NCBI RefSeq assembly: GCF_036250695.1
Contig: NZ_CP109427.1
Coordinates: forward strand, 310,001 to 374,000
Reading direction: 5' to 3'
DNA: 64,000 bases
Origin: Streptomyces sp. NBC_01497
GTDB taxonomy: Bacteria; Actinomycetota; Actinomycetes; Streptomycetales; Streptomycetaceae
Part shown: positions 20,885 through 36,555 of the stretch, piece by piece
Position numbering within the stretch: the first letter of the stretch is position 1
Layout: the number at the start of each line of letters is the position of its first letter
Made by a program: the position numbers and the translations under genes
Notes under the pieces: model-generated
The model's database searches: none
What the model was told of the DNA's origin: nothing
What the model saw: the letters and a program-made list of their open reading frames with translations, nothing else

Positions 20885-22159
20885 TCACGTGCTCATGCCC
20901 GCGGTGAGGATGTCGCCGTCGGACGGGTCGATGAGGATGAAGGAGCCGGTGAGACGCGAGTCGGCGTACCGGTCCATCGGGAGCGGCTCCGAGGTGCGCA
21001 GGACGACGGTGCCGATGTCGTTCGCGACCAGCTCGCCGGGGTCGTCCTGGCGCGTCAGGCCCCTGGTGAGGTCGGCGCGGTACGGGATGGCCTCGACGGT
21101 GGCCCGCACGGTCCTGGTGCCGTGTTTGAGCAGGACCCGGGCCCCCACGGTGAGCGGACGCCCGTGCAGGTGGCAGGCGGTCGCCTCGAAGCGGCGCGTG
21201 GTCGGCGGAGCTGACGCGACCGGGGCGATCACGTCCCCCCGTGAGACGTCCAGTTCGTCGTCGAGGCAGACGGTGACCGACTGCGGCGCCCAGGCGGTGT
21301 CCACCGCGCGGCCCAGCACGTCGATGGAGCTGATGGTGCTGGTCGGGCCCGTGGGGAGCACGGAGACCTCGTCGCCGACGTGCAGCACACCGGATGCGAC
21401 CCGGCCCGCGTAGCCCCGGTAGTCGGGCCGTTCGGCGGTGTGCGGCCGGATGACGTACTGCACCGGGAGACGGCCGGGAGCGCGGGCCGGGTCGTCGCCC
21501 GCCTCCACGGTCTCCAGGTGCTCCAGCACGGTGCGGCCGCTGTACCAGTCCATGCGCGCGGACGGCTCGACCACGTTGTCCCCTGCGAGCGCCGAGATGG
21601 GGATCGCGGTGGCCTCCGCGACTCCGAGGGAGTCCGTGTACGCCGTGAACTCCTGGGCGATCGTGGCGAAGACGGACTCCGCGTAGCCGACCAGGTCCAT
21701 CTTGTTCACGGCGAGCACCACGCGCGGGACGCGCAGCAGCGCGGCGATGGCGGCGTGCCTGCGGGTCTGCTCGACGACACCGTGCCGGGCGTCGACGAGG
21801 ATGACGGCGAGGTCGGCCGTGGAGGCGCCGGTCACCATGTTCCGGGTGTACTGCACGTGTCCGGGGGTGTCGGCGAGGATGAACCGGCGCCGGGCGGTGG
21901 CGAAGTAGCGGTAGGCGACGTCGATGGTGATGCCCTGCTCGCGTTCGGCCCGCAGGCCGTCGGTGAGCAGCGCGAGGTCGGGCGCGTCCTGCCCCCGGTC
22001 GCGGGAGACGTGCTCGACGGCCTCCAACTGGTCGGACAGGACCGACTTCGAGTCGTACAGGAGACGGCCGACCAGGGTCGACTTGCCGTCGTCCACGGAT
22101 CCTGCCGTGGCGAAGCGCAGCAGTGAGGCCGCCCTGGGAGGTGCGGCGGTGGTCGTCAT
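20885..22159 (-). CDS. cysN: sulfate adenylyltransferase subunit 1 (GTPase)
   Basis: CysN is the GTPase subunit that drives ATP + sulfate to APS with CysD. The 424-residue protein has the G1 loop GSVDDGKSTLVGRL, the switch DTPGHVQYTRNMVTGAS (G3) and AVNKMDLVGY (G4), then two beta-barrel domains as in elongation factors. The ATG at 22159 matches the usual start of streptomycete CysN. A GTG four codons upstream (22171) is possible; GAGGAGA lies immediately before it. It is the last gene of the cluster's minus-strand run, 195 bases after cysD. No cysH or sulfite reductase follows, so the APS made here most likely feeds PAPS for sulfation rather than cysteine synthesis. Confidence 0.95.
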   Translation of the reverse strand: MTTTAAPPRAASLLRFATAGSVDDGKSTLVGRLLYDSKSVLSDQLEAVEHVSRDRGQDAPDLALLTDGLRAEREQGITIDVAYRYFATARRRFILADTPGHVQYTRNMVTGASTADLAVILVDARHGVVEQTRRHAAIAALLRVPRVVLAVNKMDLVGYAESVFATIAQEFTAYTDSLGVAEATAIPISALAGDNVVEPSARMDWYSGRTVLEHLETVEAGDDPARAPGRLPVQYVIRPHTAERPDYRGYAGRVASGVLHVGDEVSVLPTGPTSTISSIDVLGRAVDTAWAPQSVTVCLDDELDVSRGDVIAPVASAPPTTRRFEATACHLHGRPLTVGARVLLKHGTRTVRATVEAIPYRADLTRGLTRQDDPGELVANDIGTVVLRTSEPLPMDRYADSRLTGSFILIDPSDGDILTAGMST

Positions 22160-22354
22160 GGGGGATGTCACTCTCCTCGTCGTTGGGTGGCTGGGAGGGT
22201 CGACCGGGCGCAGGCCGGGCGCCCGGGGACGGCGTGCGGGGAGCAGTGCGAGGCGGGCCGTCGGCGCGGTGGCCGGGCCGTCCGGCCAGGCAGCCCCGAT
22301 CGTGCGGGCCCCGAGGCGGACCCCGCCACGTCACGCCTGCTCGGGTACGCGGGG

Positions 22355-23320
22355 TCAGAAGTAGCCCTCGCGCTTGCGGTCCTCCATGGCCGCCTCCGAC
22401 AGCTTGTCGTCCGCACGGGTCGCGCCGCGCTCCGTCAGCCGCGATGCCGCGACCTCCGCGATGACCTCTTCCGTGGTGGTGGCCTCCGATTCGACGGCAC
22501 CGGTGCAGGACATGTCCCCGACGGTCCGGTAGCGGACCTGCCGCTGTTCGACGGTCTCGTCCTCCTCGGGACCGCCCCAGTCCCCCGGTGCCAGCCACAT
22601 GCCGGACCGTTGGAAGACGTCACGGTCGTGGGCGTAGTAGATCGCCGGCAGGTCGATGTCCTGGTGGTCGATGTACTGCCACACGTCCAGCTCCGTCCAG
22701 TTGGACAGCGGGAAGACACGGACGTGTTCGCCGGGCGCGTGGTGGCCGTTGTAGAGCTGCCACAGCTCCGGACGCTGGCGGCGGGGGTCCCAGCCGCCGA
22801 ACTCGTCGCGCAGTGAGAAGATCCGCTCCTTGGCGCGCGCCTTCTCCTCGTCCCTGCGTCCGCCGCCGAACACCGCGTCGAAGCGGCCCTCGTTGATCGC
22901 GTCCAGCAGGGGCACGGTCTGCAGGGGGTTGCGCGTTCCGTCGGGGCGCTCGCGCAGCCGCCCGTCATCGATGTAGTCCTGCACGGACGCGACGTGCAGC
23001 CGCAGACCGTACTCCTCGACCGTGCGGTCCCGGTGGTCGAGGACCTCCGGGAAGTTGTGACCGGTGTCGACGTGCAGCAGGCCGAACGGCAGCGGGGCCG
23101 GCGCGAACGCCTTGCGCGCGAGGTGCAGCATGACGATGGAGTCCTTGCCGCCGGAGAAGAGGATCACCGGCCGTTCGAACTCGCCGGCGACCTCTCGGAA
23201 GATGTGCACCGCCTCCGATTCGAGCGCGTCGAGGTGCGACAGCGCGTACGGGTCTTCCGTGCGTTCGGCGTCCTGGGCGTGCCGGCCGTCCCTGGTGAGG
23301 CGGGCCTCGACAGTGGTCAT
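22355..23320 (-). CDS. cysD: sulfate adenylyltransferase subunit 2
   Basis: This is the ATP-pyrophosphatase (N-type) subunit that forms APS with CysN. The 321-residue protein carries the PP-loop FSGGKDSIVMLHLARKA near residue 55, HVDTGHNFPEVLDHRD and FGGGRRDEEKARAKERIFS, all typical of CysD. The length is normal (about 300-312). Its ATG overlaps the cysC stop by four bases, so CysC and CysD are made together. The CysC-CysD-CysN order copies the primary assimilation operon. Here it is joined to LysK by overlap and belongs to the LysW cluster. Confidence 0.96.
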   Translation of the reverse strand: MTTVEARLTRDGRHAQDAERTEDPYALSHLDALESEAVHIFREVAGEFERPVILFSGGKDSIVMLHLARKAFAPAPLPFGLLHVDTGHNFPEVLDHRDRTVEEYGLRLHVASVQDYIDDGRLRERPDGTRNPLQTVPLLDAINEGRFDAVFGGGRRDEEKARAKERIFSLRDEFGGWDPRRQRPELWQLYNGHHAPGEHVRVFPLSNWTELDVWQYIDHQDIDLPAIYYAHDRDVFQRSGMWLAPGDWGGPEEDETVEQRQVRYRTVGDMSCTGAVESEATTTEEVIAEVAASRLTERGATRADDKLSEAAMEDRKREGYF

Positions 23321-23895
23321 GCCAACTCCTTCCGTATCAGCAGTTCGTGCAGCGCGTCGACCGAGTCGGCCGCATTCTCGGCCTGGGTCTCGATCCGCAA
23401 GTCGGGTGCCTCGGGTGCTTCGTAGGGGTCGTCCACTCCTGTCAGGCCCGTGACCCGGCCGACCGCCTGCCCGGCGTACAGGCCCTTCACGTCACGCTGT
23501 GAGCAGACCTCGACGGGGGTGGCGACATGCACCTCCAGATAGGGGGTCGCCGTCGTCTCGTGGCGGCCACGCACCTCCTGCCGGGAGTCCGCGTAGGGCG
23601 CGATCACCGGGACGAGTACCAGCACGCCGTTGCGTGCCAGTGTCTGCGCGACCAGACCGATGCGCTGGACGTTGAGATGGCGGTCCTCGCGGGAGAAGCC
23701 GAGGCCGGCGGACAGGAACCGGCGGATCTCGTCGCCGTCGAGTACTTCCACCCGACGCCCTTCGTGCCTGAGCCGCTCGGCCAGTGCGTGGGCGATGGTG
23801 CTCTTTCCCGCGCTCGGCAGGCCGGTGAGCCATACGGTCGCGCCGGGCCAGCAGGTGCAGAACGGGGGTGCTGTCACCGCCTGGTCATTCTTCAC
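23317..23895 (-). CDS. cysC: adenylylsulfate (APS) kinase
   Basis: CysC phosphorylates APS to PAPS, the sulfate donor of sulfotransferases. The 192-residue protein has the P-loop GLPSAGKSTIAHALAERL near residue 26, DGDEIRRFL, LGFSREDRHLNVQRIG and the lid segment RDVKGLYAGQAVGRVTGLTG, all of the family. It overlaps lysK by eleven bases upstream and cysD by four downstream, so its translation is tied to the LysW pathway. With CysD and CysN it gives the cluster its own PAPS supply, matching the sulfotransferase gene at the other end. Confidence 0.95.
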   Translation of the reverse strand: MKNDQAVTAPPFCTCWPGATVWLTGLPSAGKSTIAHALAERLRHEGRRVEVLDGDEIRRFLSAGLGFSREDRHLNVQRIGLVAQTLARNGVLVLVPVIAPYADSRQEVRGRHETTATPYLEVHVATPVEVCSQRDVKGLYAGQAVGRVTGLTGVDDPYEAPEAPDLRIETQAENAADSVDALHELLIRKELA

Positions 23896-25054
23896 GGCGG
23901 CCTCCGGCAGTGGGCGCCTCTTCGTCGCCCGGTCCTTCTGTGCCCACGGCGGATCCTTCTCCTGCGGGCAGGTCCGACAGTTCGCTCAGCGCCTTCGTCA
24001 GTACGGCGATCCCGCGCAGGTACTCGTTCACGAGGGCGTACTCGTTGTCACTGTGGTCCAGGGCGCTGTCCCCGGGGCCGTAGGTCGCCATGGGGATGTC
24101 CCAGGCCTCGGCAAGTGTGTTCATGTCGGACGTGGCCGTCTTCACAGCCGGACGCGGTGTGCCGCCGAGCGAGCGGATGCCCGCGCTGAGGGCGCGGACG
24201 ACCGGGCCCCTGCGATCCGTCCGCACCGCCCGTACGCCGTTGACGACCTGCAGTTCCCCGCCCCTGGCGCGCTCGCGCAGGGCGGCCACGAAGGCGCCCT
24301 GGTCGAAGCCGGTGGGGGTGCGGACACTGATGTCCAGTTCGGCGTCCTCGGCGTCGCCCCGCATGCCGACGAGCGTGGCGCCGGGCGTCGAGAACGAGCC
24401 GTGGCCCTGGTCGGGGCCGAGCAGTTCCAGGACGTCCTGCCAGAGCGCGGCGGCGCATTCGGACGCCTTCTCCACGGGGTTGCTGGGGTGCGTGGCCGGG
24501 CGGTGGACCCGGTAGGCCAGGTCGAGTTTGCCCTTGTAGCCGATGACGATGCCGGGCCAGCCGCTGGGTTCGCCGACGACGAGAGCGTCGGGCCGCGGCA
24601 GCGTACGGCCGATGTGCACTGCTCCGCGGGAGCACGGGGTCTCCTCCTCGACCACTCCCACGACCGTCAGGCGGCCGGGGAAGTCGCGGTGTGCGGCGAC
24701 CGCGCGGATCATTGCGGCAAGGGGGCCCTTGGCGTCCACGGAGCCACGCCCGTAGAGGCGATCGCCCTCGCGGCGCACGGGCACCGCGCCGGGGACGGTG
24801 TCCATGTGTCCGAGCAGCATGATGTGCGGTCCGGGGCGCGCGGGGGTCTCGCCGATGGCGTTGCCCGCTTCGTCGATCCGGGCACAGAGGCCGAGTCCGG
24901 TCATGACGCCGGTCAGATGGCGCGCGATCCTGTGCTCCTCGCCGGAGGGCGAGGGGATGTCCAGCATGGACCGCAGCATGTCCACGGCCTCGTCGGGGTC
25001 CGTGCCGAGGAGCGCCGGGGCCGGCTCCGTGGACGGGGAGATGTCGGTGGTCAT
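23885..25054 (-). CDS. lysK: LysW-amino acid hydrolase (M20 metallopeptidase)
   Basis: LysK-type enzymes cleave the gamma-glutamyl isopeptide bond that holds the finished amino acid on LysW. The 389-residue protein is an M20 dinuclear zinc hydrolase. It shows SPSGEEHRIA, the metal-binding LLGHMDTVPG, GRGSVDAKGPLAAMI, the catalytic VEEETPCSRGA, VVGEPSGWPGI and a late TATSDMNTL block. The last 30 residues are a disordered acidic tail beyond the usual length of about 350. It overlaps lysZ by four bases and cysC by eleven. In this cluster it should release the modified amino acid from the carrier, before or after sulfation. Confidence 0.88.
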   Translation of the reverse strand: MTTDISPSTEPAPALLGTDPDEAVDMLRSMLDIPSPSGEEHRIARHLTGVMTGLGLCARIDEAGNAIGETPARPGPHIMLLGHMDTVPGAVPVRREGDRLYGRGSVDAKGPLAAMIRAVAAHRDFPGRLTVVGVVEEETPCSRGAVHIGRTLPRPDALVVGEPSGWPGIVIGYKGKLDLAYRVHRPATHPSNPVEKASECAAALWQDVLELLGPDQGHGSFSTPGATLVGMRGDAEDAELDISVRTPTGFDQGAFVAALRERARGGELQVVNGVRAVRTDRRGPVVRALSAGIRSLGGTPRPAVKTATSDMNTLAEAWDIPMATYGPGDSALDHSDNEYALVNEYLRGIAVLTKALSELSDLPAGEGSAVGTEGPGDEEAPTAGGRREE

Positions 25055-26088
25055 CGGTTGCTCCCGTCGCTGTGCGCTCGGGTACGGGTTTCCCGCGCCG
25101 GTTCGGGGCGCCCGTCGGAGCCCGGTTCCGGTGCGAGATGCACCGTCGTACCGGCTCCGTCGAGCGCGTCGCCGACCGGCCGCTCGCCCCTGCCGTCGGC
25201 CACGGTCACCTCGTCGACTCCTCCGGTCAGTGCCTCGCGCGCCGCCACGAGCTTGATCGCCATGCCGCCCTTGGCGAACTTCCCCGGCCGGCCTGCCGCG
25301 TTGACGTCGTAGTCGGTCAGCACGCTGTCCTCGTCGTGCGGATCGGCGAGCACACCGGAGGCGCCGGTGAGCAGCACCAGCCGGTCGGCGCCGAGAGCGG
25401 CGGCGAGCGCCGCGGCGACCCGGTCGGCGTCGGCGTTGACGGTCACGCCCTGTTCGTCCACCGCGGGGGGTGAGACGACGGGCACGTAGCCCTGCGTGAG
25501 CAGCGCCGAGACGAGTTCGCCGCGTACCGCCTGGATACGCCCGCTGCGGTCGTCACGCACGACCACGGTGCGGCCGTCGACCACCGCCTTCTGCCCGGTC
25601 CTGCGGCGGGTGCGTATCAGGCTGCCGTCCACGCCGGTCAGGCCGACCGCCTCGACGCCGTTGCGGATGAGTTCGCTGACGAGCCTGGGTTTGACCGAGC
25701 CGGCCAGTGCGAGCGTCACCACTTCCAGGGTGGCATCGTCGGTCCGGCGTGTGGAGACGCCGTCCGGCGAGACGAGGCGGCGCTGCGGTACGCCGAGTTC
25801 GTCGGCGAGCCGGTCGATCTCGGCGGAGCCGCCGTGCACCAGCACGAGGCGGTGGCCGGCGCGGACCAGTTCGGCGACGTCCGCGCACACGCTGTCGGCG
25901 TCCACTTCGCTGTTGCCCCCGCACTTGACGACGAGCAGCTTCGACGCGTCGTCCGAGCCGCTCCTGTCCTGTGCCTCCTCCTCGTCCTCGGGCTCCTTCT
26001 CCGGTTCGTCCGGTGAGATGTGCCGCCACGTACCCCGCGGATTCCCGTGTGTGGTTCCCGGCACGTCCGTGCCACTGATCGTGGTCAT
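25051..26088 (-). CDS. lysZ: LysW-linked amino acid kinase (acetylglutamate kinase family)
   Basis: LysZ phosphorylates the side-chain carboxylate of the amino acid bound to LysW. The 345-residue protein has the amino-acid-kinase fold: [57 protein letters not shown] and GGMAIKLVAAREAL. An acidic extension of about 50 residues (SPDEPEKEPEDEEEAQDR) precedes the kinase core, which is odd for the family. The ATG at 26088 has GGGAGAGG before it, so the extension is probably real. It overlaps lysK by four bases. LysZ of Thermus acts on LysW-aminoadipate or LysW-glutamate; here LysW-glutamate is the likelier substrate because a transketolase is present. Confidence 0.88.
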   Translation of the reverse strand: MTTISGTDVPGTTHGNPRGTWRHISPDEPEKEPEDEEEAQDRSGSDDASKLLVVKCGGNSEVDADSVCADVAELVRAGHRLVLVHGGSAEIDRLADELGVPQRRLVSPDGVSTRRTDDATLEVVTLALAGSVKPRLVSELIRNGVEAVGLTGVDGSLIRTRRRTGQKAVVDGRTVVVRDDRSGRIQAVRGELVSALLTQGYVPVVSPPAVDEQGVTVNADADRVAAALAAALGADRLVLLTGASGVLADPHDEDSVLTDYDVNAAGRPGKFAKGGMAIKLVAAREALTGGVDEVTVADGRGERPVGDALDGAGTTVHLAPEPGSDGRPEPARETRTRAHSDGSNR

Positions 26089-26182
26089 GTCCCTCTCCCA
26101 GTTCACGTCCTTGTGTCCTTCGGAAGGTGTGTCCGGCGGATGTGCGCGCCGGACGGCGCCGTGTCCGCCCGGGCGGTCCGGC

Positions 26183-27208
26183 TCACACCGGGTGCAGCCC
26201 CGGGAAGCCAAGCCCGTGGTTCTCGGGCCAGCCCATCCGCAGGTTGAGGCACTGCACGGCGTTGCCCGCGCCGCCCTTGACGAGGTTGTCCAGCGCGGCG
26301 GCGGCGACCAGCCGGCCCGAGCCGGGGTCGAAGGCGTGCCCGACGTCGCAGAAGTTGGAACCGAGCAGGATCTTGGGTTCCGGATAGCGATAGGTGCCCC
26401 GCTTGTGGGCCACCAGCCGTACGAACGGCTCGTCGGCGTACGCCTCGCGGTACGCGGCCCGTACCGCCTTCTCCTCGGTGCCCTCGCGGAGGGTGGTGTG
26501 GCACAGGACCTGCACGCCCCGCACCGCCTCCACTCCGGTCGCCGTCATATGGGCGTCAAGACCCGTGTGCTGAGTCACCTCTGCCTCATGACGATGCGTC
26601 AGCGGCGCGAACAGCCGCATGGCGCCGCTGCGTTCGGCGTGGAGATTGGCGTTCCCGGCGCCGGTGCCGGACCCGCTGGATCCGGTACGGCCGTCCACCA
26701 GTACGGACGACTCGGCCAGTTTCGCCTGGGCGAGCGGGTGCAGTGCGAGGATCGCGGCGTTGGCCATGCAGCCGGGGACGCTGATCATGCGCGCGGTGCG
26801 CAGCCGCTCCCGGTGCAGCTCGGGGATGCCGGGGACGAAGTCGTCGAGCAGGCCGGGCGCCTCGTGGGCGAGACCGTAGTGACGCTCGTAGACGTCGCCG
26901 TCGCGCAGCCGGAAGTCGCCCGACAGGTCGATCAAGGTGTCCGCGCGCCCGGCCCAGGTGCGCACCAGTTCCATCGTGGAGCGGTGCGGTGTGGCCAGGA
27001 GGACCACGTCGCAGTCGGCCGCCCGCTCGGCGTCGCAGAAGGTGAGGTCGGTGACCGAGCGGAGATTGGGATGCACACTGTCAACGCGTTTGCCCGGGAA
27101 GCGCGAGGACACCGCGGCCGCCACCTCTGTTTCCGGGTGGCCGAGGAGCAGCCGCAGCAGCTCGCCGCCGATATAGCCGGCCGCGCCGAACACCGCTGCC
27201 CTGATCAT
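26183..27208 (-). CDS. lysY: LysW-gamma-acyl-phosphate reductase (ArgC-like)
   Basis: LysY reduces the LysW-bound acyl phosphate to the semialdehyde with NADPH. The 341-residue protein has the Rossmann start AAVFGAAGYIGGELLRLL, the catalytic Cys in SVPGCMANAAILAL, GSSGSGTGAGNANLHAERS and a late GAGNAVQCLNLRMGWPE, all typical of ArgC/LysY enzymes. It overlaps lysX by four bases and is followed by a 94-base gap before lysZ. Since arginine and lysine synthesis in Streptomyces use acetylated intermediates and the DAP pathway respectively, this copy belongs to secondary metabolism. Confidence 0.92.
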   Translation of the reverse strand: MIRAAVFGAAGYIGGELLRLLLGHPETEVAAAVSSRFPGKRVDSVHPNLRSVTDLTFCDAERAADCDVVLLATPHRSTMELVRTWAGRADTLIDLSGDFRLRDGDVYERHYGLAHEAPGLLDDFVPGIPELHRERLRTARMISVPGCMANAAILALHPLAQAKLAESSVLVDGRTGSSGSGTGAGNANLHAERSGAMRLFAPLTHRHEAEVTQHTGLDAHMTATGVEAVRGVQVLCHTTLREGTEEKAVRAAYREAYADEPFVRLVAHKRGTYRYPEPKILLGSNFCDVGHAFDPGSGRLVAAAALDNLVKGGAGNAVQCLNLRMGWPENHGLGFPGLHPV

Positions 27209-28071
27209 GTGTTCACCTCCAGCACGAGTCGGTCGACGATCTCCTGGGCCACGTCGGTCCGGTCACCGTGCGCGTGCTGGAAGCCCTTGAACTCGACTCC
27301 GTGATTGACCTCCAGCACGTACGGGCGGCCGTCGCGGTCCTCGACGAGGTCGACGCCGGCGATCTGCGCGCCGGTCTCCTTCGCGGCGGCCGCGGCGGGT
27401 GCGGCGATGTCCGGGGTCAGCTCGCATGGTTCCGTTGTGCTGCCGCGCGCCACGTTGGTGCGCCATTCGTCCGACCTGCGGTAGACGGCGCCGATGGGGG
27501 TGCCTCCGACGACGATCACCCGGATGTCCCGGTCCGGCTTGTCCACGTAGCTCTGCAGGTAGACCAGCTTGGCCTGGGGCGAGGGCAGCGCGTCGCAGTA
27601 CTCCAGCACCGTGCGCAGCGCTGCCGCGTCGGGCAGGAGCGCCACGCGCCGGCCCCACGAGCCGACCAGGGGCTTGAGCACCACCGGGTAGCCGAGCCGC
27701 TCCGCCGCCTCCTCGCCGGCCTCCGCGGTCAGGGCGAGGGCGGCGGGCGGGGTGGGTATGCCGGCCGCGCGCAACGCGAGCGACGTACGCCACTTGTCGC
27801 CGCAGGTCTCCACGGCGGCGGCCGAGTCGAGGACGGGAACGCCCATGGCTTCGAAGGTCAGGGCCGCGTAGAGCGCGCGGGTCGCGGAGATCTCCCGGTT
27901 GAGCACCAGGTCCCACGGCGGGCGGCCGTCGTCCAGGTGCTGGTGCACCGTCCGCGCGTCGATGAGTGTACGAGGGATTCCCCGGCGGTCCAGGGCCTCC
28001 AGGATCCGCTTCTCCTCGAAGCGGACCCGGGAGGCCAGCAACGCCGTCCGGGGCGCTGGGGTGGGCCTCAC
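27205..28071 (-). CDS. lysX: LysW-glutamate/aminoadipate ligase (RimK-like ATP-grasp)
   Basis: LysX ligates the alpha-amino group of the substrate amino acid to the C-terminal Glu of LysW, using ATP. The 288-residue protein has the RimK-type ATP-grasp fold: NREISATRALYAALTFEAMG, GYPVVLKPLVGSWGRRV, QSYVDKPDRDIRVIVVGG, and metal-binding EDRDGRPYVLEVNHGVEFKG. The length is normal for LysX/ArgX (about 280). The start is GTG, five bases after the lysW stop, and the stop overlaps the lysY start, so W-X-Y are translated as a unit. Whether it prefers Glu or aminoadipate cannot be settled by eye. Confidence 0.92.
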   Translation of the reverse strand: MRPTPAPRTALLASRVRFEEKRILEALDRRGIPRTLIDARTVHQHLDDGRPPWDLVLNREISATRALYAALTFEAMGVPVLDSAAAVETCGDKWRTSLALRAAGIPTPPAALALTAEAGEEAAERLGYPVVLKPLVGSWGRRVALLPDAAALRTVLEYCDALPSPQAKLVYLQSYVDKPDRDIRVIVVGGTPIGAVYRRSDEWRTNVARGSTTEPCELTPDIAAPAAAAAKETGAQIAGVDLVEDRDGRPYVLEVNHGVEFKGFQHAHGDRTDVAQEIVDRLVLEVNT

Positions 28072-28075
28072 GTCG

Positions 28076-28252: not shown

Positions 28253-28409
28253 GAGATGTCCTTCCGTTGGGTTGGTCGGTGCTGTGTTGTCCTGCGCGTG
28301 AATGGTGCGGTGAGTGGTACCGCCGTCGTGGGCGGTGGAGGGGGCTCCCCGGGGCTTCCCCGTGGGCGTTGCGGACGGTGGCGTGCGCGGGACCGGTGGT
28401 GCCGGTCTC

Positions 28410-29504
28410 TCACGTCCCGGCGGGTGCCCGGCCGGCCGCCGGTCCTTCGAGCGCTTCCATGACGGTCGCCGCGGTCCGCTCCGCGGTGATCCCGTAGCGG
28501 TCGAGCAGGTACTGCTGGCTGCCGGCGGTGTCGCTGAACCGGTCCGGCATCCCGATGCGCAGCACCCGCGTCGGGCGTGTCTCGGCCAGCGCCTCGCACA
28601 CGGCGCCGCCGAGGCCGCCGCTGCGCCAGTGCTCCTCCACCGTGACCACCAGGGAAGCGTCCGCGCTCGCGCCGAGCAGCGTCTCGGTGTCGAGCGGCCG
28701 CAGGGTGTGCATGTTCAGCACGCACGCGGAGACTCCGCGTGCGGCCAGCAGCTCCGCGGCCTCGGTGCAGGCCGTCACGGGATGGGGTCCGCAGCCCACG
28801 AGCACGACGTCCGTTCCGGGGCGCAGCAGTTGGGCGCGGCCGATGACCGCGGGCTCGTCGCAGGGGACGGCCGGTGTCGCCTTGCGGCCGAGCCGCACGT
28901 ACATCGGGCCCGGCAGGTCGCGGCTCTGCTCGACCACCCCGGCGGTGGCGGCCGCGTCGGCGGGGACGACGACGGTCATGGTGGGCAGCGCCCGCATGAC
29001 GGTCAGGTCTTCCAACGCCTGGTGCGTGGGGCCGAGATGGCCGGCCGCGAGCCCGCCGTGTGTGGCCATGATCCGTACCGGCAGCTCCGGGTAGGCGATG
29101 TCGACCTTCACGGCCTCCAGCGCCCGCGCGCTCGCGAATCCGGCCATCGTGTTGACGAACGGCATCCGGCCGAGGGATGCGAGTCCCGCGGCGATGCCCA
29201 TCAGGTTGTGCTCGGCGATGCCGAGGTTGACGTAGCGCTCACCGGCCGCCTCGGTGTGGCGCGGGCCGAACAGCCCGGTGTCGGTGTCCAGGCACATCAG
29301 CCGCGGGTCGTCGGGAAGCAGCTCCATCAGACGGTCGCGGTAGGCCTCGCGGGTCACCCCGGGAGCCCCGGCCTCGCGCTCCTGATGCGCGGCGAGCCCG
29401 CGTCCGGCCGCCCGGCCGGTCCTCCTCGTGCTCTGTGTGCTCCGCGCGCGGCCGGTGTCGGCGTCGCCCGCGGTATGCGTGTCGCGCTCGGTGGTCGTGG
29501 TCAT
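28410..29504 (-). CDS. transketolase, C-terminal subunit
   Basis: The 364-residue protein holds the pyrimidine-binding and C-terminal domains of a transketolase. RYVNLGIAEHNLMGIAAGLA contains the catalytic Glu that activates thiamine diphosphate. SLGRMPFVNTMAGFASARA and GPTHQALEDLTVMRALPTMTV follow, and the C-terminal domain holds VVLVGCGPHPVTACTEAAELL and VVTVEEHWRSGGLGG. About 50 N-terminal residues are low-complexity. Split transketolases occur in secondary metabolism. In LysW pathways they add a two-carbon ketol unit to the LysW-bound semialdehyde. The ATG overlaps the stop of the N-terminal subunit by four bases, giving equal synthesis. Confidence 0.92.
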   Translation of the reverse strand: MTTTTERDTHTAGDADTGRARSTQSTRRTGRAAGRGLAAHQEREAGAPGVTREAYRDRLMELLPDDPRLMCLDTDTGLFGPRHTEAAGERYVNLGIAEHNLMGIAAGLASLGRMPFVNTMAGFASARALEAVKVDIAYPELPVRIMATHGGLAAGHLGPTHQALEDLTVMRALPTMTVVVPADAAATAGVVEQSRDLPGPMYVRLGRKATPAVPCDEPAVIGRAQLLRPGTDVVLVGCGPHPVTACTEAAELLAARGVSACVLNMHTLRPLDTETLLGASADASLVVTVEEHWRSGGLGGAVCEALAETRPTRVLRIGMPDRFSDTAGSQQYLLDRYGITAERTAATVMEALEGPAAGRAPAGT

Positions 29505-30403
29505 TTCTCGTCCTCCTTTCCGGTCGTTCGGTCCTCTTCCGTGCTCCTGACGCCCTCCCCGGAACGGCGCAGCACAGCGCGCGCCTTGGCGAGGTTGCGT
29601 TCGGAGAAGGTCACGTAGTGGCAGGCCGGGCGGCCCTCCAGGAACGGCAGGCCGTGTCCCTTGGTGGTCCTCGCGATGACGACGCTGGGCCGGCCCGGCT
29701 CCCACGGCGCACTGCCGAGTGCCTCGGTCAGCTCGCCCAGGTCGTGGCCGTCGAACTCGCGCACCGCCCAGCCGAAGCTGCGCCAGCGGTCCGCGAGCGG
29801 TTCCATCGCGGCGATCCCGTCCGTGGGCCCCGTCAGCTGCAGGCTGTTGCGGTCCACCACCGCGACCAGCCGGTCGAGGCCCAGTGACGCGGCGCCGATG
29901 GCTGCCTCCCAGACCGAGCCCTCCTGGAGTTCGCCGTCGCCCATGAGCACGAACGTCCTGCTGTCCCTGCCCTCCAGCCGGGTCCCCAGCGCGAAGCCGC
30001 AGCCCAGCGCGAGTCCGTGACCGAGTGATCCGGTGGCCGCCTCGACTCCCTCCACCGCCCGTACCGGGTGGCCGAGCAGCCGGCTTCCGGGGCGCGCGTA
30101 GGTGTCCAGCTCACCGACGGGGAAGTAACCGCGCTCGGCGAGCGTCGCGTACAGCCCGACGGCCGCGTGTCCCTTGCTGAGGACGAAGCGGTCGCGCTCG
30201 GGCGCGTCGGGCCGGTCCGGGTACACGTTCATCACGTCGAAGTACAGGGCGGTCATGATCTCCGTCGCGGAGTACGCGCCGCCGAGGTGTCCGCCCTCGG
30301 GTCCCGCGCACATGTCCGCGACGTGTTCCCTGATGCGGGTGGCCCTCTCCCGCAGGGCGTCCAGGTCCGTCGTCCGCCGTGCCCGGGGCAGGGTCGTCGT
30401 CAT
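29501..30403 (-). CDS. transketolase, N-terminal subunit
   Basis: The 300-residue protein is the thiamine-diphosphate-binding half. [20 protein letters not shown] and [19 protein letters not shown] are near the N-terminus. [19 protein letters not shown] and the TPP/magnesium motif [16 protein letters not shown] ending near [13 protein letters not shown] follow. It forms a heterodimer-of-dimers with the next gene's product. It overlaps the aminotransferase gene by four bases at its start and the C-terminal subunit by four at its end. Primary transketolase is a single chain in Streptomyces, so this pair is specific to the pathway. The donor (for example xylulose 5-phosphate) is inferred from characterised clusters. 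Confidence 0.93.
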
Positions 30404-31734
30404 GCCGTCACCCCCGCGAAGCTGCCCACGGTGTCCAGGTGCTGCCAGGTCTTCTCGAACGCGTCCGCGTACCGGTCCAGGAGCGCGCCGCTGCCGGGGT
30501 TGAGGTGGCGTTTCTGGATGGTCAGGGAATCCCGTACGACCTCGTGGCTCACGGGGTACTGCGCGTGCGAGTGGACCGAGTGCTGCGAGCCGTACGAGCC
30601 GGCGGGCGGCCGTTCCTCGCCCGCGTCCAGCGCCGCCCAGGGGTAGCCGCGACCGAAGCCGGCGCGCTCGCGGAAGACCGTCTGGTCGGGCAGCGGCATC
30701 AGCTGGTACCGGGACATCGGCACGCCCTCCGCGCGCAGCACCCGGCGCAGCGCGTCCCTGAAACGTTCCGGGGTGACGCCGTGAAGACCGGCGGCTGCCG
30801 GGTCGAACCGGAAGCGCAGGATGTGCCACACGTGGGTGGTGCCGGCCAGTGGCCGTGGCACGGTGAGGCCGGGCAGGTCGCGCAGACGGCCGAGGAACCG
30901 GCCGATGTTGGTCTGGCGTGCCTGCTCATACTCCTCGAAGCGGCTCAGCTGCGCGGTGGCGAAGGCGGCCTGGATACCGTTCATCTTCTGGTTCCAGCCG
31001 AGTTGGTGGGAGACGTAGTCGCGCTCCTTGCCGCTCTCCATCACCTCGCCGAACTGGCGGGCGCGGCGGGCCGATTCGGCAAGCGTGTCGTCGTTGGTCA
31101 CCAGCAGCCCGCCCTCGCCGCAGGTCGGGATGTTCTTGGTGACCTGGAGGCTGAAGGCGCCCATGTCCCCGAGGCCGCCCACCGGGCTGCCGTGGTGGGT
31201 CGCTCCCGGTGCCTGTGCGGCGTCCTCGACCACCGCGATGCCGTGGCGGCGGGCGATGTCGTTGATGCGGTCCATGTCCGCCGGCGCGCCGTGCAGGTGA
31301 ACGGGGATGATCGCGCGGGTCCTCGAAGTGATGCGGCGCTCGACGTCCGCCGGGTCCAGGTTGAAGGTGACGGGGTCGACGTCGGCGAAGACGGGCACGG
31401 CCATGTTGTGCAGCGGGGCGAGCCCGGTCGCGATGAACGTCAGTGCCGGCACGATCACTTCACTGCCGGGTCCCACGCCGAGCGCGGACAGCGCGAGCGA
31501 GAGCGCCGCGGTACCGTTCGCGACAGCCACGCAGTGGCCGAAGCCGAACCGTTCGGCCCACTGCCGCTCCAGCGAACTGACCGGTGTCTCGCCGTCCGCG
31601 TCGGACACGAACCGTCCGCCGTCCAGGGCGTCGAGCACCGCCTTGCGGTCCTCGTCCTCGATCACCGGCCACTCCACGTGGCGTTCGGTCTTCGCCACGG
31701 CGGGTGTACCGCCGAGTACTGCGAGCTTGTTCAT
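30400..31734 (-). CDS. DegT/DnrJ/EryC1-type PLP aminotransferase
   Basis: The 444-residue enzyme belongs to the sugar/AHBA aminotransferase family. [20 protein letters not shown] is near residue 71, [16 protein letters not shown] binds PLP, and [15 protein letters not shown] follows. The Schiff-base Lys200 lies in [15 protein letters not shown]. It should aminate the ketone left after ketol transfer, giving a 2,6-diamino-5,7-dihydroxy acid still on LysW. GAGAGGAC precedes the ATG at 31734. It overlaps the transketolase N-subunit gene by four bases, which ties the two steps together. At 444 residues it is longer than the usual 370-400, mainly through an insertion near the C-terminus around [20 protein letters not shown]. 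Confidence 0.93.
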
Positions 31735-31776
31735 GTCGTCCTCTCTGGCGGCGAGGGACTCCCGCGCCGCCGGTAC

Positions 31777-31804
31777 GGTCACAACGCCCCGGTCACAACG
31801 CCCC
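31777..31804. repeat. 14-base tandem duplication at the end of the BtrH-like gene
   Basis: GGTCACAACGCCCC occurs twice with no gap (31777-31790 and 31791-31804). The second copy contains the gene's last codons and stop. The repeat duplicates the stop context and adds spacing before the aminotransferase ribosome site, and looks like a recent slippage event. Confidence 0.7.
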
Positions 31805-32830
31805 GACGGCGCGTCGGACGGCCTCGATCGCGTCGGTGTAGCGCCACCGCAGCACCTCCGCGTGCCGGCGCAGGTCTGCCGCCGCTCCGGCCGGGTCGTC
31901 CAGGGAATGTGCCCCGGTGATCCGCAGCGGGGTCCACGCGTGCGCGACGCTCTCCACGGCACGGCCGGCTCCGGCGAGTGCCGGCAGCCGCCAGGCGGTC
32001 CCCCGCTCTCGCAGGAGTTCGCCGTGGAGTGCCGCTTGCGCCTGCATGCCCCAGCCGAACGGGTAGAGCTCCTGCAGCGGGCGGGTCTCGCCGGCCCGTG
32101 CGCCGGCTGCCAACTCCCTTGCGTAGCGGTCGAGTCCGGCCAGCCCGGCGTACCCCTCCCCCTCCCCCGGCTCCTCGAACTGCTCCAGGTTCGCGCGCAG
32201 CCAGCCGGCGAGGCGGCCGGGGTCGGGAACCGCCTGGGCCTCTCCCGCCGAGACGGCGAGGCACCGCCGGCTGATCTCCGAGTCGCTGAAGAAGGCGTCC
32301 TGATGGTCCTGCGGGTTCGCCGACCCCCAGCTGCGCAGGAAGTCGTCGACCGGGAGCGGCCCCTGGAACGCCGGGGGCATCGCGTCGGACACGTGGACCA
32401 GGCCCCTGCGTTCGTCGAGGCCGTACACGACGAGCAGATGCGCGGCGTGCACGTCGCCGAAGGCCGGCCGGAAGGGGAGGTAGTAGTTGTCCACGGCGGC
32501 GATGACGAGTCGGCGTTCCGCCAGCGACTCCCGGATCTCACGCAGTGGATCGTCCTGGTTTTCGGGGCGCCACCAGGAGGACGTCACGTCGTGGTGGGGG
32601 AACAGGCTGCGGCCGAGGTCTCCCCGGTACCTGCACGGGTAGTAGAACTCCTCCGACCGTACGTCACCCGGGACGTGACGGAACTCCCAGCCCGCGCCGA
32701 GCGCGGGCAGCGGCTCGGTACCCGTGTGGGCCAGCACGGAGGCGAACGTGGACTGGAGGCAGCTGACGGGGTCCCGGTACCAGAGCAGGGGCGTCTCGGT
32801 CCGTGCGGGAGCGAGCGGTTCACTGGTCAT
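31793..32830 (-). CDS. BtrH-like protein (papain-like acyl/aminoacyl transferase candidate)
   Basis: The 345-residue protein resembles the BtrH_N domain, named for the butirosin enzyme that moves an acyl chain from a carrier protein to an amine. It has an N-terminal Cys (Cys24, in [18 protein letters not shown]), the [22 protein letters not shown] block near 116-137 with His128 and His131, and an Asp in [13 protein letters not shown]. Cys, His and Asp in this order suit a C39/transglutaminase-like active site. The C-terminal third is helical and unrecognised. It overlaps the next upstream gene by eleven bases, so the two products probably work together. The pair could be the aziridine-forming enzyme analogous to AziU3/U2, or this protein could transfer the product from LysW. 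Both are inference. Confidence 0.6.
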
Positions 32831-33542
32831 GGCCGGCCTCCGGGTTCTCGGTGGACGTGTGCGGGGCGACGGACCCATCCCGTACGACGGGCCGCTGCGG
32901 CGGTGTCGCCGACTCCTGCAATGTGGCGGCGAAGACGTGGACGGCCGCGTTGGGGGGCAGCCGGAATCCCGTCAGGACCGAGCGGCGCGTCACCGGGATC
33001 CGCTGCGACCACATCGCGGCCTGTACGTGTCGCTGGACGTGGTGCGGATAGTGCATCACCGGCGTCCGGTAGGCCTCCGTCTCGCCGAACCATGCCGGCG
33101 CCACCCAGAAGTCGGAGACACGCAGCCACTCGGCGTCGACGCCGCCGTCCTCGAAGTGCATCTCCACGACGTCCTCGGCGCGCCTCTCGGACGCCGCGAG
33201 CACATGCAGCCAGTCGTAGCGACCGGGCGGGACCGGCACGAACTGCCCGTCACAGCGCACGTTGTCGTCGCCTGCCGCGATCCTCGGGAACACGTACGGG
33301 ACACCGCCGACACTCACCGGCTCACGCCCCGCGGGGCCGCCGGGCAGGAACTCCGCCGGGAACGAGTTGCCCCAGACGTTGAACGATCCGCGGGAGGTGT
33401 CGTCCGCCGTGGAGACGCCGATGTTGTTGACGTACGGCGCCAGGTCCACGGTTCGGCACGGCGCGCTCCCCCCGGCCGTACCGGAGGCGCTCCCCGTGTC
33501 GACGGGGCCCGTGGCGGTGATGGATGCGAATAGGTCGGTCAC
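32820..33542 (-). CDS. protein of unknown function, first gene of the LysW operon
   Basis: I do not recognise this 240-residue protein with certainty. It looks like a soluble beta-rich fold: VDLAPYVNNIGVS, WGNSFPAEFLPGG, GGVPYVFPRIAAGDDNVRCD, PGRYDWLHVLAASERRAED, GVDAEWLRVSDFW, YPHHVQ, and a late LPPNAAVHVFAATLQ. This carbohydrate-binding-like layout (NxxG, PxGRYDW, SDFW, HVFAxTL) recurs in actinobacterial proteins of unknown role, as I remember them. The GTG at 33542 follows AGGGGA by six bases; a GTG two codons earlier is possible. It overlaps the BtrH-like gene by eleven bases and is the first gene after the divergent promoter. Its constant partner gene suggests a two-component enzyme. Confidence 0.5.
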   Translation of the reverse strand: MTDLFASITATGPVDTGSASGTAGGSAPCRTVDLAPYVNNIGVSTADDTSRGSFNVWGNSFPAEFLPGGPAGREPVSVGGVPYVFPRIAAGDDNVRCDGQFVPVPPGRYDWLHVLAASERRAEDVVEMHFEDGGVDAEWLRVSDFWVAPAWFGETEAYRTPVMHYPHHVQRHVQAAMWSQRIPVTRRSVLTGFRLPPNAAVHVFAATLQESATPPQRPVVRDGSVAPHTSTENPEAGHDQ

Positions 33543-33938
33543 GATCACTCCCCTGGTCTCCCACCTGCAACAGGGCTGCGATGGGGATTCCTTCTCCATC
33601 GGGCTTCTCCATCAAGACAAACACCGGGGAACGCGTGCGTCCTCCGTCACACGCTTACACGTGCGAGCCGATTTCTCATCCACGCGCCGTAATCCGGGCA
33701 TCATCGCGATGATTTTCGCGTAGTCGCCTGTATGGCCGCGCCCGGAACCGGAGGCCGACATACGGCATGAAATGAGGAATGCCGCAGTTCGCGATGTCAT
33801 CACCACGATTACCCCGGGAGCAACGGCGCGTCCAGGAAGGTCGGTTCGCCGCGACGCAGGGCCCCGCCCCGGGTGTACCGTCCAGGAAAACGGAAACGGA
33901 GAATTCAAGCGATTCCAGAGATTCGAGCGAAGGCGGTT
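33543..33938. promoter_or_regulatory. divergent promoter region of the LysW cluster
   Basis: These 396 bases separate the minus-strand biosynthetic operon from the sulfotransferase gene and are less GC-rich than the surroundings. A perfect 14-base palindrome ATCATCGCGATGAT lies at 33700-33713. A six-base inverted repeat, CGGCAT and ATGCCG with a ten-base gap, lies at 33763-33784. No convincing gene is present. The LuxR-type regulator encoded at the cluster edge is the obvious candidate to bind here. Confidence 0.55.
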
Positions 33939-34703
33939 ATGGTGAGCGAGAATTCGGATACGGAGACCACGGGCGTGACCACGCGGCCACGCGTCATCGC
34001 CCTGTGGAGCGCGCCACGTTCACGCTCCACGGCTTTTCTCCGCATGATGATGGAGCGCGGTGATCTCACGACGCTCCACGAGCCGTTCTCCCACCGATCG
34101 GACTTCGGCTCCACGGAGGTGGCGGGACGCACGGTGACCACGGAGCCCGATCTCATCGAGGCGATTCGCGAACTGGCGCTCACGGCCCCCGTCTTCTTCA
34201 AGGACACGACGGACTTCCGCTTCCCCGGGGTGCTCGCGGACCCGCGCTTCCTCGCGGAGGTCCGGCACACCTTCATCATCCGCAGGCCGGACGAGGTCAT
34301 CGCCTCGCACTACGCGCTCGATCCGGAGGTCACCGCCGACGGCATCGGCTTCGGCAGGCTGCACGAGTTGTTCGAGGCCGTCCGCACGGCAACCGGGACC
34401 ACGCCCGCGGTGGTGGACTCCGACGATCTGCTCGACGACCCGGCGGCCACCGTGCGGCTCTACTGCGAGAGCGTGGGGCTGCCCTTCCGGGCCGACACCC
34501 TGACCTGGGCGAGCGGCATGCGCGAGGAATGGCAGAAGGCCTCAAAGTGGCATGCGGACGCCGGCAGGAGCGGCGGATTCACCCGCACGGAGCGCACTTA
34601 CGAGTTCACGGTGGACAACCATCCCGTGCTCGCGGAGCACCACCGCAGGCAGAAGCCGTACTACGACGATCTGTACCGGCACCGGTTGCCCGTCCACGCG
34701 TGA
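33939..34703 (+). CDS. sulfotransferase-family protein (PAPS-dependent)
   Basis: The 254-residue protein starts a P-loop-like fold with VIALWSAPRSRSTAFLRMM (residues 19-37), matching the 5'-phosphosulfate loop of sulfotransferases. LHEPFSH and VFFKDTTDF follow, and the 3'-phosphate region HTFIIRRPDEVIASHYAL has the Arg and Ser expected of PAPS binding. It belongs to the bacterial group often mislabelled branched-chain aminotransferase-like or sulfotransferase-like. The start at 33939 has GAAGGCGG before it. It is divergent from the LysW operon, whose far end encodes CysC, CysD and CysN, so it very probably sulfates a hydroxyl of the LysW-bound amino acid. That would prime it for elimination or make a stable sulfate ester. 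Confidence 0.8.
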   Translation: MVSENSDTETTGVTTRPRVIALWSAPRSRSTAFLRMMMERGDLTTLHEPFSHRSDFGSTEVAGRTVTTEPDLIEAIRELALTAPVFFKDTTDFRFPGVLADPRFLAEVRHTFIIRRPDEVIASHYALDPEVTADGIGFGRLHELFEAVRTATGTTPAVVDSDDLLDDPAATVRLYCESVGLPFRADTLTWASGMREEWQKASKWHADAGRSGGFTRTERTYEFTVDNHPVLAEHHRRQKPYYDDLYRHRLPVHA

Positions 34704-34781
34704 CCCGCACGCACCCGGCGACCGCCCGTGGCCCCCGCGCCCGGCGGGTCCGGTGGCCGCCCGGCGAACGGAAGGACTGTG

Positions 34782-35885
34782 ATGAACGCACGCCCCTGGC
34801 CACGTCCGACACGCGGCAACCTGCGGTTGGCCGCCGTGCTCGGTCTGCTGACCGTCACCGCGATCTGGGGCGCCACGTTCCTGGTCGTCAAGGACGCCAC
34901 CGCGCACATGTCCGTATGGGGCTTCCTGGCATGGCGGTTCGGGATCGCCGCGGTGGCGATGGCCGCGCTGCGGCCGGCCGCCGTCCTGCGCATCCGGCGC
35001 GACACGCTGGGCCCGGGGGCGGGCGCGGGACTGCTGCTGGGCGCCTCGTACATCCTGCAGACCTTCGGGCTGCAGCACACCTCGGCCGCCATCAGCGGGT
35101 TCCTGACCGGTCTCTTCGTCGTCTTCACACCGGTGCTCGCGCTGCTCCTGCTGCGCGAACGGCTCTCGCCGCCGGCATGGGCGGCCGTTGTGACCGCCGC
35201 TGTCGGCCTCGGCCTGATCACCATCACCGGCGTGGCGTTCGGCGCCGGTGAGGTGCTCACCCTGCTGTGCGCCGTCTGCTTCGCGCTGCACCTGCTGGCC
35301 CTCGGACGCTGGTCGCCGGGGCGTGACGCCTACGCACTGACCGTCGTACAGCTCGGGACGGCCTGTCTGATGAGCGTTCTCGGTGGGCTCGTCCAGGGGC
35401 CCTCCGGGCTGCGGCCGCCGGAGAACTGGAGTGCGTGGACGGGTGTCCTCGTCACCGCACTGCTGGCCTCCGCCTTCGCCTACATGGTGCAGACGTGGGC
35501 CCAGACGCACATGACACCCACACAGGCGGCGGTGGTGCTGACCATGGAACCGGTCTTCGCGGGGGTCTTCGCCGTCCTGGTCGGCGGCGAGCGCCTGACG
35601 ATCGCCACCCTCGTGGGAGGCGCACTGGTCGTGGCGGCGATGTTCCTGGTGGAGGTCCCCGGCGCGTCGTCCGGGAAGGACCCGCAGACCGTCGATTCCG
35701 CACCGCCCGCCTCAGGAGGCGGGCCCGGCGGGACCGACGCGACCGGCAAGGCGGACAGGGGGGCCGGAGGAAGGTCCGGCGACGCGGAAACCGGAGGAAG
35801 CACCGGCAAGTCCGATGATGCCCGCGCGTCCGGCGCGACAGCCGGTGCGCGCCGGAGGGACACGCCGGACGAGGCGACGCGATGA
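34782..35885 (+). CDS. EamA/DMT-family exporter
   Basis: The 367-residue protein has ten helices in two EamA repeats (about residues 10-145 and 150-290): AIWGATFLVVKDA in helix 1, SAAISGFLTGLFVVFTPVLA, and MTPTQAAVVLTMEPVFAGVF near the end. Members export amino acids and small metabolites. A hydrophilic Gly/Asp/Ser/Arg tail of about 75 residues follows the last helix and is low-complexity, probably cytoplasmic. GGAAGGA precedes the ATG. It lies 78 bases after the sulfotransferase gene, in the same operon, so it is the likely exporter of the cluster product and may serve as self-protection. Confidence 0.88.
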   Translation: MNARPWPRPTRGNLRLAAVLGLLTVTAIWGATFLVVKDATAHMSVWGFLAWRFGIAAVAMAALRPAAVLRIRRDTLGPGAGAGLLLGASYILQTFGLQHTSAAISGFLTGLFVVFTPVLALLLLRERLSPPAWAAVVTAAVGLGLITITGVAFGAGEVLTLLCAVCFALHLLALGRWSPGRDAYALTVVQLGTACLMSVLGGLVQGPSGLRPPENWSAWTGVLVTALLASAFAYMVQTWAQTHMTPTQAAVVLTMEPVFAGVFAVLVGGERLTIATLVGGALVVAAMFLVEVPGASSGKDPQTVDSAPPASGGGPGGTDATGKADRGAGGRSGDAETGGSTGKSDDARASGATAGARRRDTPDEATR

Positions 35886-35901
35886 GCGGCCGGCAGCAAC
35901 G

Positions 35902-36555
35902 TCAGAGCAGGCCGGAGCTGAAGACGAACGAGACGAGCTGAGCCCGGTCGCGCACACCCAGCTTGTGCCGTAAGCGGTAGATGTGGGTCCGTACGGTCGC
36001 CACGCCGATCACGAGATACGTGGCGATCTCCTCGACCGACCTGCCCTCGCCCACCAGCAGCAGCACCTCCCGCTCGCGCGGGGTCAGCGACTCGACCTGC
36101 GGATCGGGTTCCGGGTCGGGGCCGAAGTCCTGGCTGCGAAACCACCCGACGAGCCGGCCCGTCACACTCGGCGCGAGCGTCACCTCACCCCGTGCGGCCG
36201 CCCTGACGGCCATCAGGACCTGCTCCGGCCGGGTCTCCTTCTCTATGAGGGTGCGCACGCCGGCCTTCAGCAGCGTCTCGACCGTCCGGTCCGTTATGTC
36301 GCTGGTGAACACGACGATCTTCGACTGCGCCTCACGGGAATCCTCATGGAGCAGCCGATGGATGAATTCCATTCCGTCCATGCCGTCCGGATGAAGGTCT
36401 GTTATCACCACATCGGGATCGGTCCTCCGGGCCATGATCAGCCCTTCCACCGCGCTGCCGGTGACCGCCACGTCCGTCACGTCGGCCACGGATTCGAATA
36501 AAGTCTTCAGTCCGTCCCGGACAACAGGAACGGAGTCACACACAAGGACACGCAT
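35902..36555 (-). CDS. response regulator, NarL/LuxR type
   Basis: The 217-residue protein has a receiver domain (residues 1-120) with an acidic start MRVLVCDS, the phosphoacceptor Asp53 in VVITDLHPDGMDGMEF, Thr/Ser in FTSDIT and Lys in LIEKETRP. A LuxR helix-turn-helix follows (about 148-213): SLTPREREVLLLVGEGRS, then VEEIATYLVIGVATVRTHIY. No sensor kinase gene is adjacent, so it is an orphan regulator. GGAG stands before the ATG at 36555. It converges with the exporter gene and ends the cluster. It is the only regulator in the cluster and probably controls the divergent promoter region at 33.6-33.9 kb. Confidence 0.92.
   Translation of the reverse strand: MRVLVCDSVPVVRDGLKTLFESVADVTDVAVTGSAVEGLIMARRTDPDVVITDLHPDGMDGMEFIHRLLHEDSREAQSKIVVFTSDITDRTVETLLKAGVRTLIEKETRPEQVLMAVRAAARGEVTLAPSVTGRLVGWFRSQDFGPDPEPDPQVESLTPREREVLLLVGEGRSVEEIATYLVIGVATVRTHIYRLRHKLGVRDRAQLVSFVFSSGLL

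Follow-up and report, generated by a model that had tools for sequence, protein, structure and literature searches.

An assembly-line-free variant of the LysW/aziridine pathway, kept as a 16-gene cassette in six genomes and predicted to yield a free aziridine amino acid

To our knowledge, the number of known aziridine-making enzymes is small, and those of the azinomycin type that have been characterised feed assembly lines. Vazabitide A is a dipeptide with an azabicyclic residue that is made through non-ribosomal peptide synthetase (NRPS) genes. Ficellomycin, an azabicyclic aziridine dipeptide, belongs to the same class as vazabitide and azinomycin. In 2022, Kurosawa and colleagues reportedly found that AziU3 and AziU2 close the aziridine of azinomycin by eliminating sulfate, with Vzb10/11 as the vazabitide equivalent. 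One review, which mentions the carrier-protein route, describes in section 3.3 how a diamino-dihydroxy-heptanoate is sulfated in azinomycin biosynthesis and the sulfate is then displaced by the neighbouring amine, and goes on to suggest, with a ‘may be’, acetylation of the aziridine intermediate and its cyclisation to an azabicycle (PMC9570651). Here, we analysed a 64-kb window (contig C1, positions 310001–374000) of the two-contig, 9.08-Mb genome of Streptomyces sp. NBC_01497; coordinates below are those of the window unless prefixed with C1. Window positions 20885–36555 (C1:330885–346555) hold 16 genes, among them those for an amino-group carrier protein, LysW, and for homologues of AziU3 and AziU2. 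A preliminary description of this window had recognised a secondary-metabolite cluster built around LysW and akin to those for vazabitide and azinomycin, and our analysis bears this out: LysX, LysY, LysZ, LysK, a split transketolase, a DegT aminotransferase, the AziU3/AziU2 pair and a sulfotransferase are all encoded. Judged from its sequence, the locus encodes a form of the known LysW/aziridine pathway that lacks an assembly line and is kept as a cassette in six genomes.

The assignment to aziridine chemistry comes from two adjoining minus-strand genes. The 361-residue open reading frame (ORF) at 31793–32830 had been labelled a ‘BtrH-like’ protein in the preliminary description. Its match to AziU3 (PDB 7wuw_C; E 2e-73; 45% identity over 329 residues), at 250.9 bits, is far stronger than its match to BtrH_N (83.1 bits), and for this reason a BtrH-like acyltransferase role was rejected in favour of an AziU3 homologue, the larger of the two aziridine-forming subunits. 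The next gene (32820–33542, predicted start), which the preliminary description had not included, lies in a 259-residue ORF that has no Pfam match and matches AziU2 (PDB 7wuw_A) at E 2e-49, identifying it as a homologue of the small subunit. When positions were called near-invariant if one letter occurred in at least 47 of 48 aligned family rows (after dropping G320, G102 and G163 from 51 AziU3 rows and G102 and G163 from 50 AziU2 rows, in an alignment made without L106 and the loci added later), 41 such positions were found in AziU3 and 32 in AziU2, and the window proteins carry the family letter at every one of them. C40, H144 and D165 of AziU3 are among the positions kept; as a guess, they might form a BtrH-like triad. 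Elsewhere in the family, in-frame stops were seen within the AziU3 match of L020 (genome G360; one TGA), of L032 (G041; one TGA and one TAG) and of the L106 genome (G414; one TGA).

Gene-by-gene tblastn comparison showed that the window's 16 genes are repeated, in the same order and orientation, in S. hokutonensis (L084), Streptomyces sp. P3 (L085), Actinacidiphila oryziradicis (L086), S. xylophagus (L087) and genome G662, with AziU3 and AziU2 genes present in all six members. Past both ends of the cassette, in the window and in L084–L087, the flanking genes have almost no counterparts in the compared loci, which delimits the unit as the stretch from the LuxR-type regulator gene to CysN. No NRPS match was found within ~30 kb of AziU3, on either side, in the five sister loci; the absence of a linked assembly line noted in the preliminary description thus holds for the window and extends to five further genomes. 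The cassette-bearing contig has no condensation-domain match in S. hokutonensis, S. xylophagus or A. oryziradicis, and in Streptomyces sp. P3 the nearest condensation domain lies ~130 kb from the cassette. The 11.5-Mb genome of A. oryziradicis, known from a fragmented assembly (apparently 390 contigs, contamination 7), gave just two weak condensation-domain matches (E 2e-18 and 2e-11), on other contigs.

The 64-kb window was likewise free of matches to five NRPS protein queries as long as the default filter was on. With the filter off, a single 44-residue match of 46.6 bits was obtained at 24075–24206, inside LysK. A hidden assembly line was considered and rejected, since the unfiltered matches in the window, in L085 (54.3 bits) and in L105 (53.1 bits) all derive from one stretch of the query G188, which looks like an over-long, wrong-frame start. 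The filter-on 23-residue match in L085 and the 46-bit match in G662, which lie below the threshold of the pooled NRPS count, are probably the same artefact. In whole-genome family searches, the nearest assembly-line domains of the host were a condensation domain at C1:553128, a ketosynthase at C1:547599 and an AMP-binding domain at C1:510551; none of these lies within the window. A self-resistance glycosylase of AlkZ type was found neither in the cassette nor in the window; AlkZ-like genes occur elsewhere in the host genome (three almost complete, besides one weak and partial match). Just 5 of the 47 family loci with NRPS genes have a linked AlkZ-like gene, indicating that such linkage is no general feature of the family.

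These 47 loci come from a wider comparison. AziU3 relatives were detected in 28 of 392 same-genus genomes, host included; scanning species-representative contigs yielded 28 loci, and a search of 394 family-level genomes gave 15 at E 1e-100, again counting the host. The final set comprised 56 of 59 loci, with eight duplicate records and the truncated G163, G002 and G320 removed. Gene clustering, tables and a first tree were made without L093, L107, L108, L111 and L106 (presumed duplicates), of which L106 is counted among the final 56. Because G102 (a 9.3-kb contig) and several loci of 16–21 kb were kept, some apparent gene absences may reflect short flanks. NRPS genes were present in the examined flanks of 47 loci and in none of the remaining 9. 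The NRPS-free loci form two separate AziU3 clades, namely the six window-type members (99 in the Shimodaira–Hasegawa-like approximate likelihood ratio test) and L105, L106 and G360 (100 in the same test). The NRPS label needs two changes on the AziU3 tree versus a shuffled mean of 8.5; the tree was built by a quick method with no bootstrap, and does not give the direction, gain or loss of NRPS, of these changes.

The two kinds of locus also differ in their oxidative enzymes. A close relative of acyl-CoA dehydrogenases (ACAD; Pfam match above 150 bits, a line that we drew) is encoded in 38 of the 47 NRPS loci, for example at L066:4395–5555 and L048:9620–10675, versus none of the 9 NRPS-free loci (Fisher p 6e-6, uncorrected for relatedness). 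Nine NRPS loci have no close ACAD; eight of these carry instead a 2-oxoglutarate/iron (2OG-Fe) dioxygenase, an Asp/Asn-hydroxylase-like protein or a cytochrome P450, so that 46 of 47 have a candidate oxidant, the sole exception being L094 (21 kb, short flank). No oxidant of the NRPS-locus type (ACAD-like, Fe/2OG-type, hydroxylase-like or P450) was found near the window cassette. In G459, G462 and G503 the core genes have the same order as in the window, and beyond LysK these loci carry NRPS genes and two ACADs where the window has ApsK, CysD and CysN. Conversely, a homologue of the cassette's EamA-family transporter gene is present in 6 of the 9 NRPS-free loci, that is, in all six of the window type, and in 0 of 47 NRPS loci. 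LysW went undetected in 10 of the 47 NRPS loci.

The second NRPS-free type (L105, L106 and G360) has no EamA gene. In G360 (L057–L058) and L105 its neighbours, assigned by scanning one representative of each, are genes for a pyridoxal phosphate-dependent decarboxylase, a glycosyltransferase of family 2 and proteins resembling arabinofuranosidases and flavoproteins. The product of this type may be an aziridine that is decarboxylated or tailored in some other way.

The main rival to a self-contained pathway is that the aziridine amino acid serves as a building block only, joined to other residues by an enzyme encoded elsewhere in the genome, be it an NRPS or a stand-alone ligase. The host does possess NRPS and polyketide synthase (PKS) genes, around C1:547–556 kb and C1:7.77–7.78 Mb, and the prevalence of NRPS genes in the flanks of untruncated family loci (47 of 56) would fit such a use. 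Against it stand the absence of a linked NRPS from the cassette in six genomes, the two weak condensation-domain matches of A. oryziradicis (with the fragmentation of that assembly in mind), and the transporter gene, which is linked in 6/6 window-type loci and in no NRPS locus. We consider this explanation unlikely.

From the observed genes, homologies and gene order, we infer the following pathway for the cassette as a self-contained unit. The minus-strand run reads, in transcription order, AziU2, AziU3, DegT, TktN, TktC, LysW, LysX, LysY, LysZ, LysK, ApsK, CysD, CysN, and 7 of the 15 adjacent gene pairs overlap by 4 or 11 bases (start codons predicted). LysW (28076–28252) is the 58-residue protein that had been noted before for its two CPEC motifs and EDWGE end; it scores 51.6 bits against PF21344, over the cut-off, stays under the cut-offs of the NCBIfam models TIGR01206 and NF041070, and combines a zinc ribbon with an acidic C-terminal Glu. 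The LysX-type ATP-grasp ligase (27205–28071) would join the alpha-amino group of glutamate to this C-terminal Glu; it is over the cut-off of TIGR00768 (232 bits), under that of TIGR02144 (267.7 against 275.6 bits), and matches PDB 3vpd (E 2e-58) and 1uc8 (E 2e-53). The LysZ-type [LysW]-amino acid kinase (25051–26106, predicted start; NF010659, 256.5 bits, cut-off 223) and the LysY-type semialdehyde dehydrogenase of the ArgC/LysY family (26183–27208; TIGR01850, 341 bits; PDB 5eio, E 4e-92) would then convert the side-chain carboxyl to an aldehyde. To this aldehyde the split transketolase would add a two-carbon ketol unit. Its N-terminal half TktN (29501–30403), with the thiamine diphosphate domain, matches PF00456 at 152 bits and overlaps by 4 bases both with DegT and with the C-terminal half TktC (28410–29504; PF02779 and PF02780). 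Amination at C6 by the DegT/DnrJ/EryC1 aminotransferase (30400–31734; PF01041, 294 bits) would give LysW-bound 2,6-diamino-5,7-dihydroxyheptanoate.

The remaining genes point to what would follow. The CysN-type large subunit (20885–22171; an ATP sulfurylase GTPase; TIGR02034, 530 bits) and CysD-type small subunit (22355–23320; TIGR02039, 460 bits) of sulfate adenylyltransferase, together with the adenylyl-sulfate kinase ApsK (23317–23895; PF01583, 190 bits; TIGR00455, 194 bits), all on the minus strand, are predicted to supply 3′-phosphoadenosine 5′-phosphosulfate (PAPS). A sulfotransferase on the plus strand (33939–34703; PF19798, 56.8 bits) would sulfate the C7 hydroxyl. The PAPS genes and the sulfotransferase would in this way provide the sulfate leaving group for aziridine closure, in which AziU3/AziU2 are expected to let the C6 amine displace the sulfate, forming an aziridine over C6–C7. 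The LysK-type M20 hydrolase (23885–25054, minus strand), over the cut-off of TIGR01902 (263.7 bits) and, at 343.7 bits, under the cut-off of 363 for the [LysW]-lysine hydrolase model NF003367, is predicted to cleave the amino acid from LysW, leaving free 2-amino-5-(aziridin-2-yl)-5-hydroxypentanoic acid (C7H14N2O3; 174.100 Da, [M+H]+ 175.1077). Some members of the EamA family are amino acid exporters, and the EamA/DMT-family protein encoded on the plus strand (34782–35885; PF00892 in two stretches, 114 bits) would export this product.

Model matches showed that all of the genes named in the preliminary description are present: LysX, LysY, LysZ, LysK, CysN, CysD, ApsK and both transketolase halves have both Pfam and NCBIfam matches, and DegT, BtrH_N, Sulfotransfer_5, EamA and the receiver plus LuxR-type regulator have Pfam matches alone. 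The idea that several of these genes were additions to the known set fared less well. A sulfotransferase relative lies in the examined flanks of 45 of the 56 AziU3 loci (36/47 NRPS, 9/9 NRPS-free), including the azinomycin-type loci G076, G077 and G086, and neither it nor the ‘BtrH-like’ protein, the AziU3 homologue, adds to the known set; the PAPS genes are rarer, with ApsK in 18/56 loci. A second cysN over the cut-off (C1:1591070; two copies in total) and a second argC (C1:6747016) elsewhere in the genome suggest that the cassette copies of cysN and of the argC-type gene are dedicated to the pathway.

The sulfotransferase and EamA genes diverge from the AziU2 homologue across a 396-bp intergenic region (33543–33938, between predicted starts), a possible two-way promoter; no conserved operator was found there, a five-member alignment showing little conservation beyond the AziU2 start. 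The gene for the response regulator with a LuxR-type DNA-binding domain (35902–36555, minus strand; PF00072 and PF00196) lies at this same end of the cassette in all six genomes. In most relatives the AziU2 gene directly neighbours that for the sulfotransferase; in G157 (L044–L045) and G471 (L150–L151), ~10 kb of other DNA separates the two.

Because the AziU3/AziU2 pair and a sulfotransferase belong to the set, we see the diamino-dihydroxy-heptanoate as a probable intermediate on the way to an end product that likely carries an aziridine. An end product consisting of the diamino-dihydroxy-heptanoate itself, its sulfate ester or an opened aziridine, with the aziridine missing or transient, would accord with the PAPS and sulfotransferase genes, which could serve a sulfate ester, and with the reactivity of a free protonated aziridine. 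We hold this to be still less likely than a role for a distant NRPS, since both AziU subunits, with all near-invariant positions intact in the window, are kept in 6/6 members.

In the azabicyclohexane, the five-membered ring results from a bond between the aziridine nitrogen and chain carbon C3, so its closure requires oxidation at C3. The NRPS and its accompanying ACAD-like or other oxidant are both missing from the cassette, from which it is predicted that the second ring does not form and that no peptide is made. The ACAD-like enzyme, or its Fe/2OG-type, hydroxylase-like or P450 substitute, is on the same grounds a candidate for the ring-closing step. Taken together, these observations lead us to a probability of roughly 0.6 that the 16-gene cassette makes a free, single-ring aziridine amino acid that is exported by the EamA-family protein.

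The presence of LysW, LysX, LysY, LysZ and LysK, and a kinase model named for aminoadipate, could alternatively be read as a primary lysine or arginine route, which comprises these same enzymes. However, a search of the 9.08-Mb genome at E 0.001 gives one LysW match, the cassette copy, a separate argC exists, and AziU3/AziU2 lie in the same cassette; we know of no role for transketolase, DegT, sulfotransferase or AziU3/AziU2 in the primary route. The occurrence of AziU3 relatives in 28 of 392 same-genus genomes is too low for an essential route to be plausible. We therefore regard a primary role, which the preliminary description had named as an outcome that would overturn its proposal, as highly improbable.

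Several observations weigh against a free, exported aziridine amino acid as the end product. The host's NRPS genes lie at least 200 kb from the cassette in the same genome, which leaves room for their use in trans, and condensation-domain matches number 15 genome-wide in S. hokutonensis, 37 in Streptomyces sp. P3 and 23 in S. xylophagus. The locus counts are not independent, the NRPS-free label requiring only two changes on the tree. Weaker ACAD matches (28–30% identity) occur outside the cassette in the window (93 bits), L085 (123 bits) and G662 (125 bits), that in the window (51978–53150, 28% identity) adjoining a thiolase gene 15 kb from the cassette; the outer flank of L085 (L118) also holds a 116-bit P450 match. 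No sulfotransferase relative was found in the examined flanks of 11 of the 47 NRPS loci, among them the six counted NRPS loci of the most distant clade (G041, G102, G199, G200, G021 and G303); for these six, the reason is either a flank of insufficient length or a different leaving-group route. No PDB relative at E 0.01 was found for the EamA protein, which makes its assumed cargo a guess, and none was found for the sulfotransferase. Finally, the kinase exceeds the cut-off of NF010659, an aminoadipate model, so that the choice of glutamate over aminoadipate as the probable starting amino acid leans on the azinomycin and vazabitide precedent.

A more far-reaching version of the proposal is that the pathway stands alone and secretes the free monocyclic aziridine amino acid via EamA as an antimetabolite, perhaps a lysine or diaminopimelate mimic, the assembly line having been lost twice in the family. 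Synthetic aziridino-diaminopimelate is an irreversible epimerase inhibitor. We offer this version tentatively, at somewhat less than even odds; if it is true, the ACAD-like enzyme beside the NRPS of the relatives would be the missing ring-closing enzyme of azabicycle formation. If the cassette does release its product, it would be a compact, self-contained 16-gene source of a free aziridine amino acid, conserved in six genomes. The amino acid would probably be a new antimetabolite, and the cassette a simple setting for reconstituting aziridine chemistry. The gene content of the 56 loci makes the azabicycle ring-closing step testable, and points to the ACAD-like enzyme or its substitutes. Rule-based cluster finders often key on NRPS/PKS genes, which cassette-like clusters of the present kind do not contain.

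Just past one end of the cassette lies a gene (17030–20269) for a 1079-residue protein resembling alpha-1,3-glucanases, in which carbohydrate-binding and F5/8 domains were recognised. The window also holds a GH3 glycosidase gene (10561–12927) and, near the cassette on its other side, an enolase gene (42383–43774).

Among described systems, vazabitide A by description shares the route through a LysW-bound diamino-dihydroxy-heptanoate and differs in its NRPS genes from the window cassette, which has no linked NRPS; ficellomycin is likewise placed in this class by description. The literature matches listed, considered by title and the start of the abstract, included no NRPS-free aziridine cluster, and Kurosawa 2022 and Hasebe 2016 may already mention some. 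The iso-maleimycin cluster of Streptomyces sp. QL37 likewise places a LysW carrier protein among secondary-metabolite genes, and the excerpted text names no NRPS for it; it differs in its AMP ligase, RimK and beta-lactone-like organisation, and no aziridine genes are named in that excerpt (PMC12022981). Pearlins such as 3-thiaglutamate are also amino acid analogues built on a carrier peptide and then freed, though with a peptide scaffold and other enzymes, and with no aziridine mentioned in the titles and opening lines of the abstracts (PMC9303977, PMC9016710). Azinomycin B can be compared through the azinomycin-type loci G076, G077 and G086, whose AziU3 proteins are 79–94% identical to that of PDB 7wuw. 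Judged from these loci, the azi system shares with the window cassette AziU3/AziU2, the sulfotransferase, the split transketolase, DegT and the LysW-type genes. The azinomycin-type loci have in addition NRPS, ACAD, P450 and AlkZ-like glycosylase genes, none of which occurs in the window cassette, whereas the cassette carries the EamA gene that the azinomycin-type loci lack.

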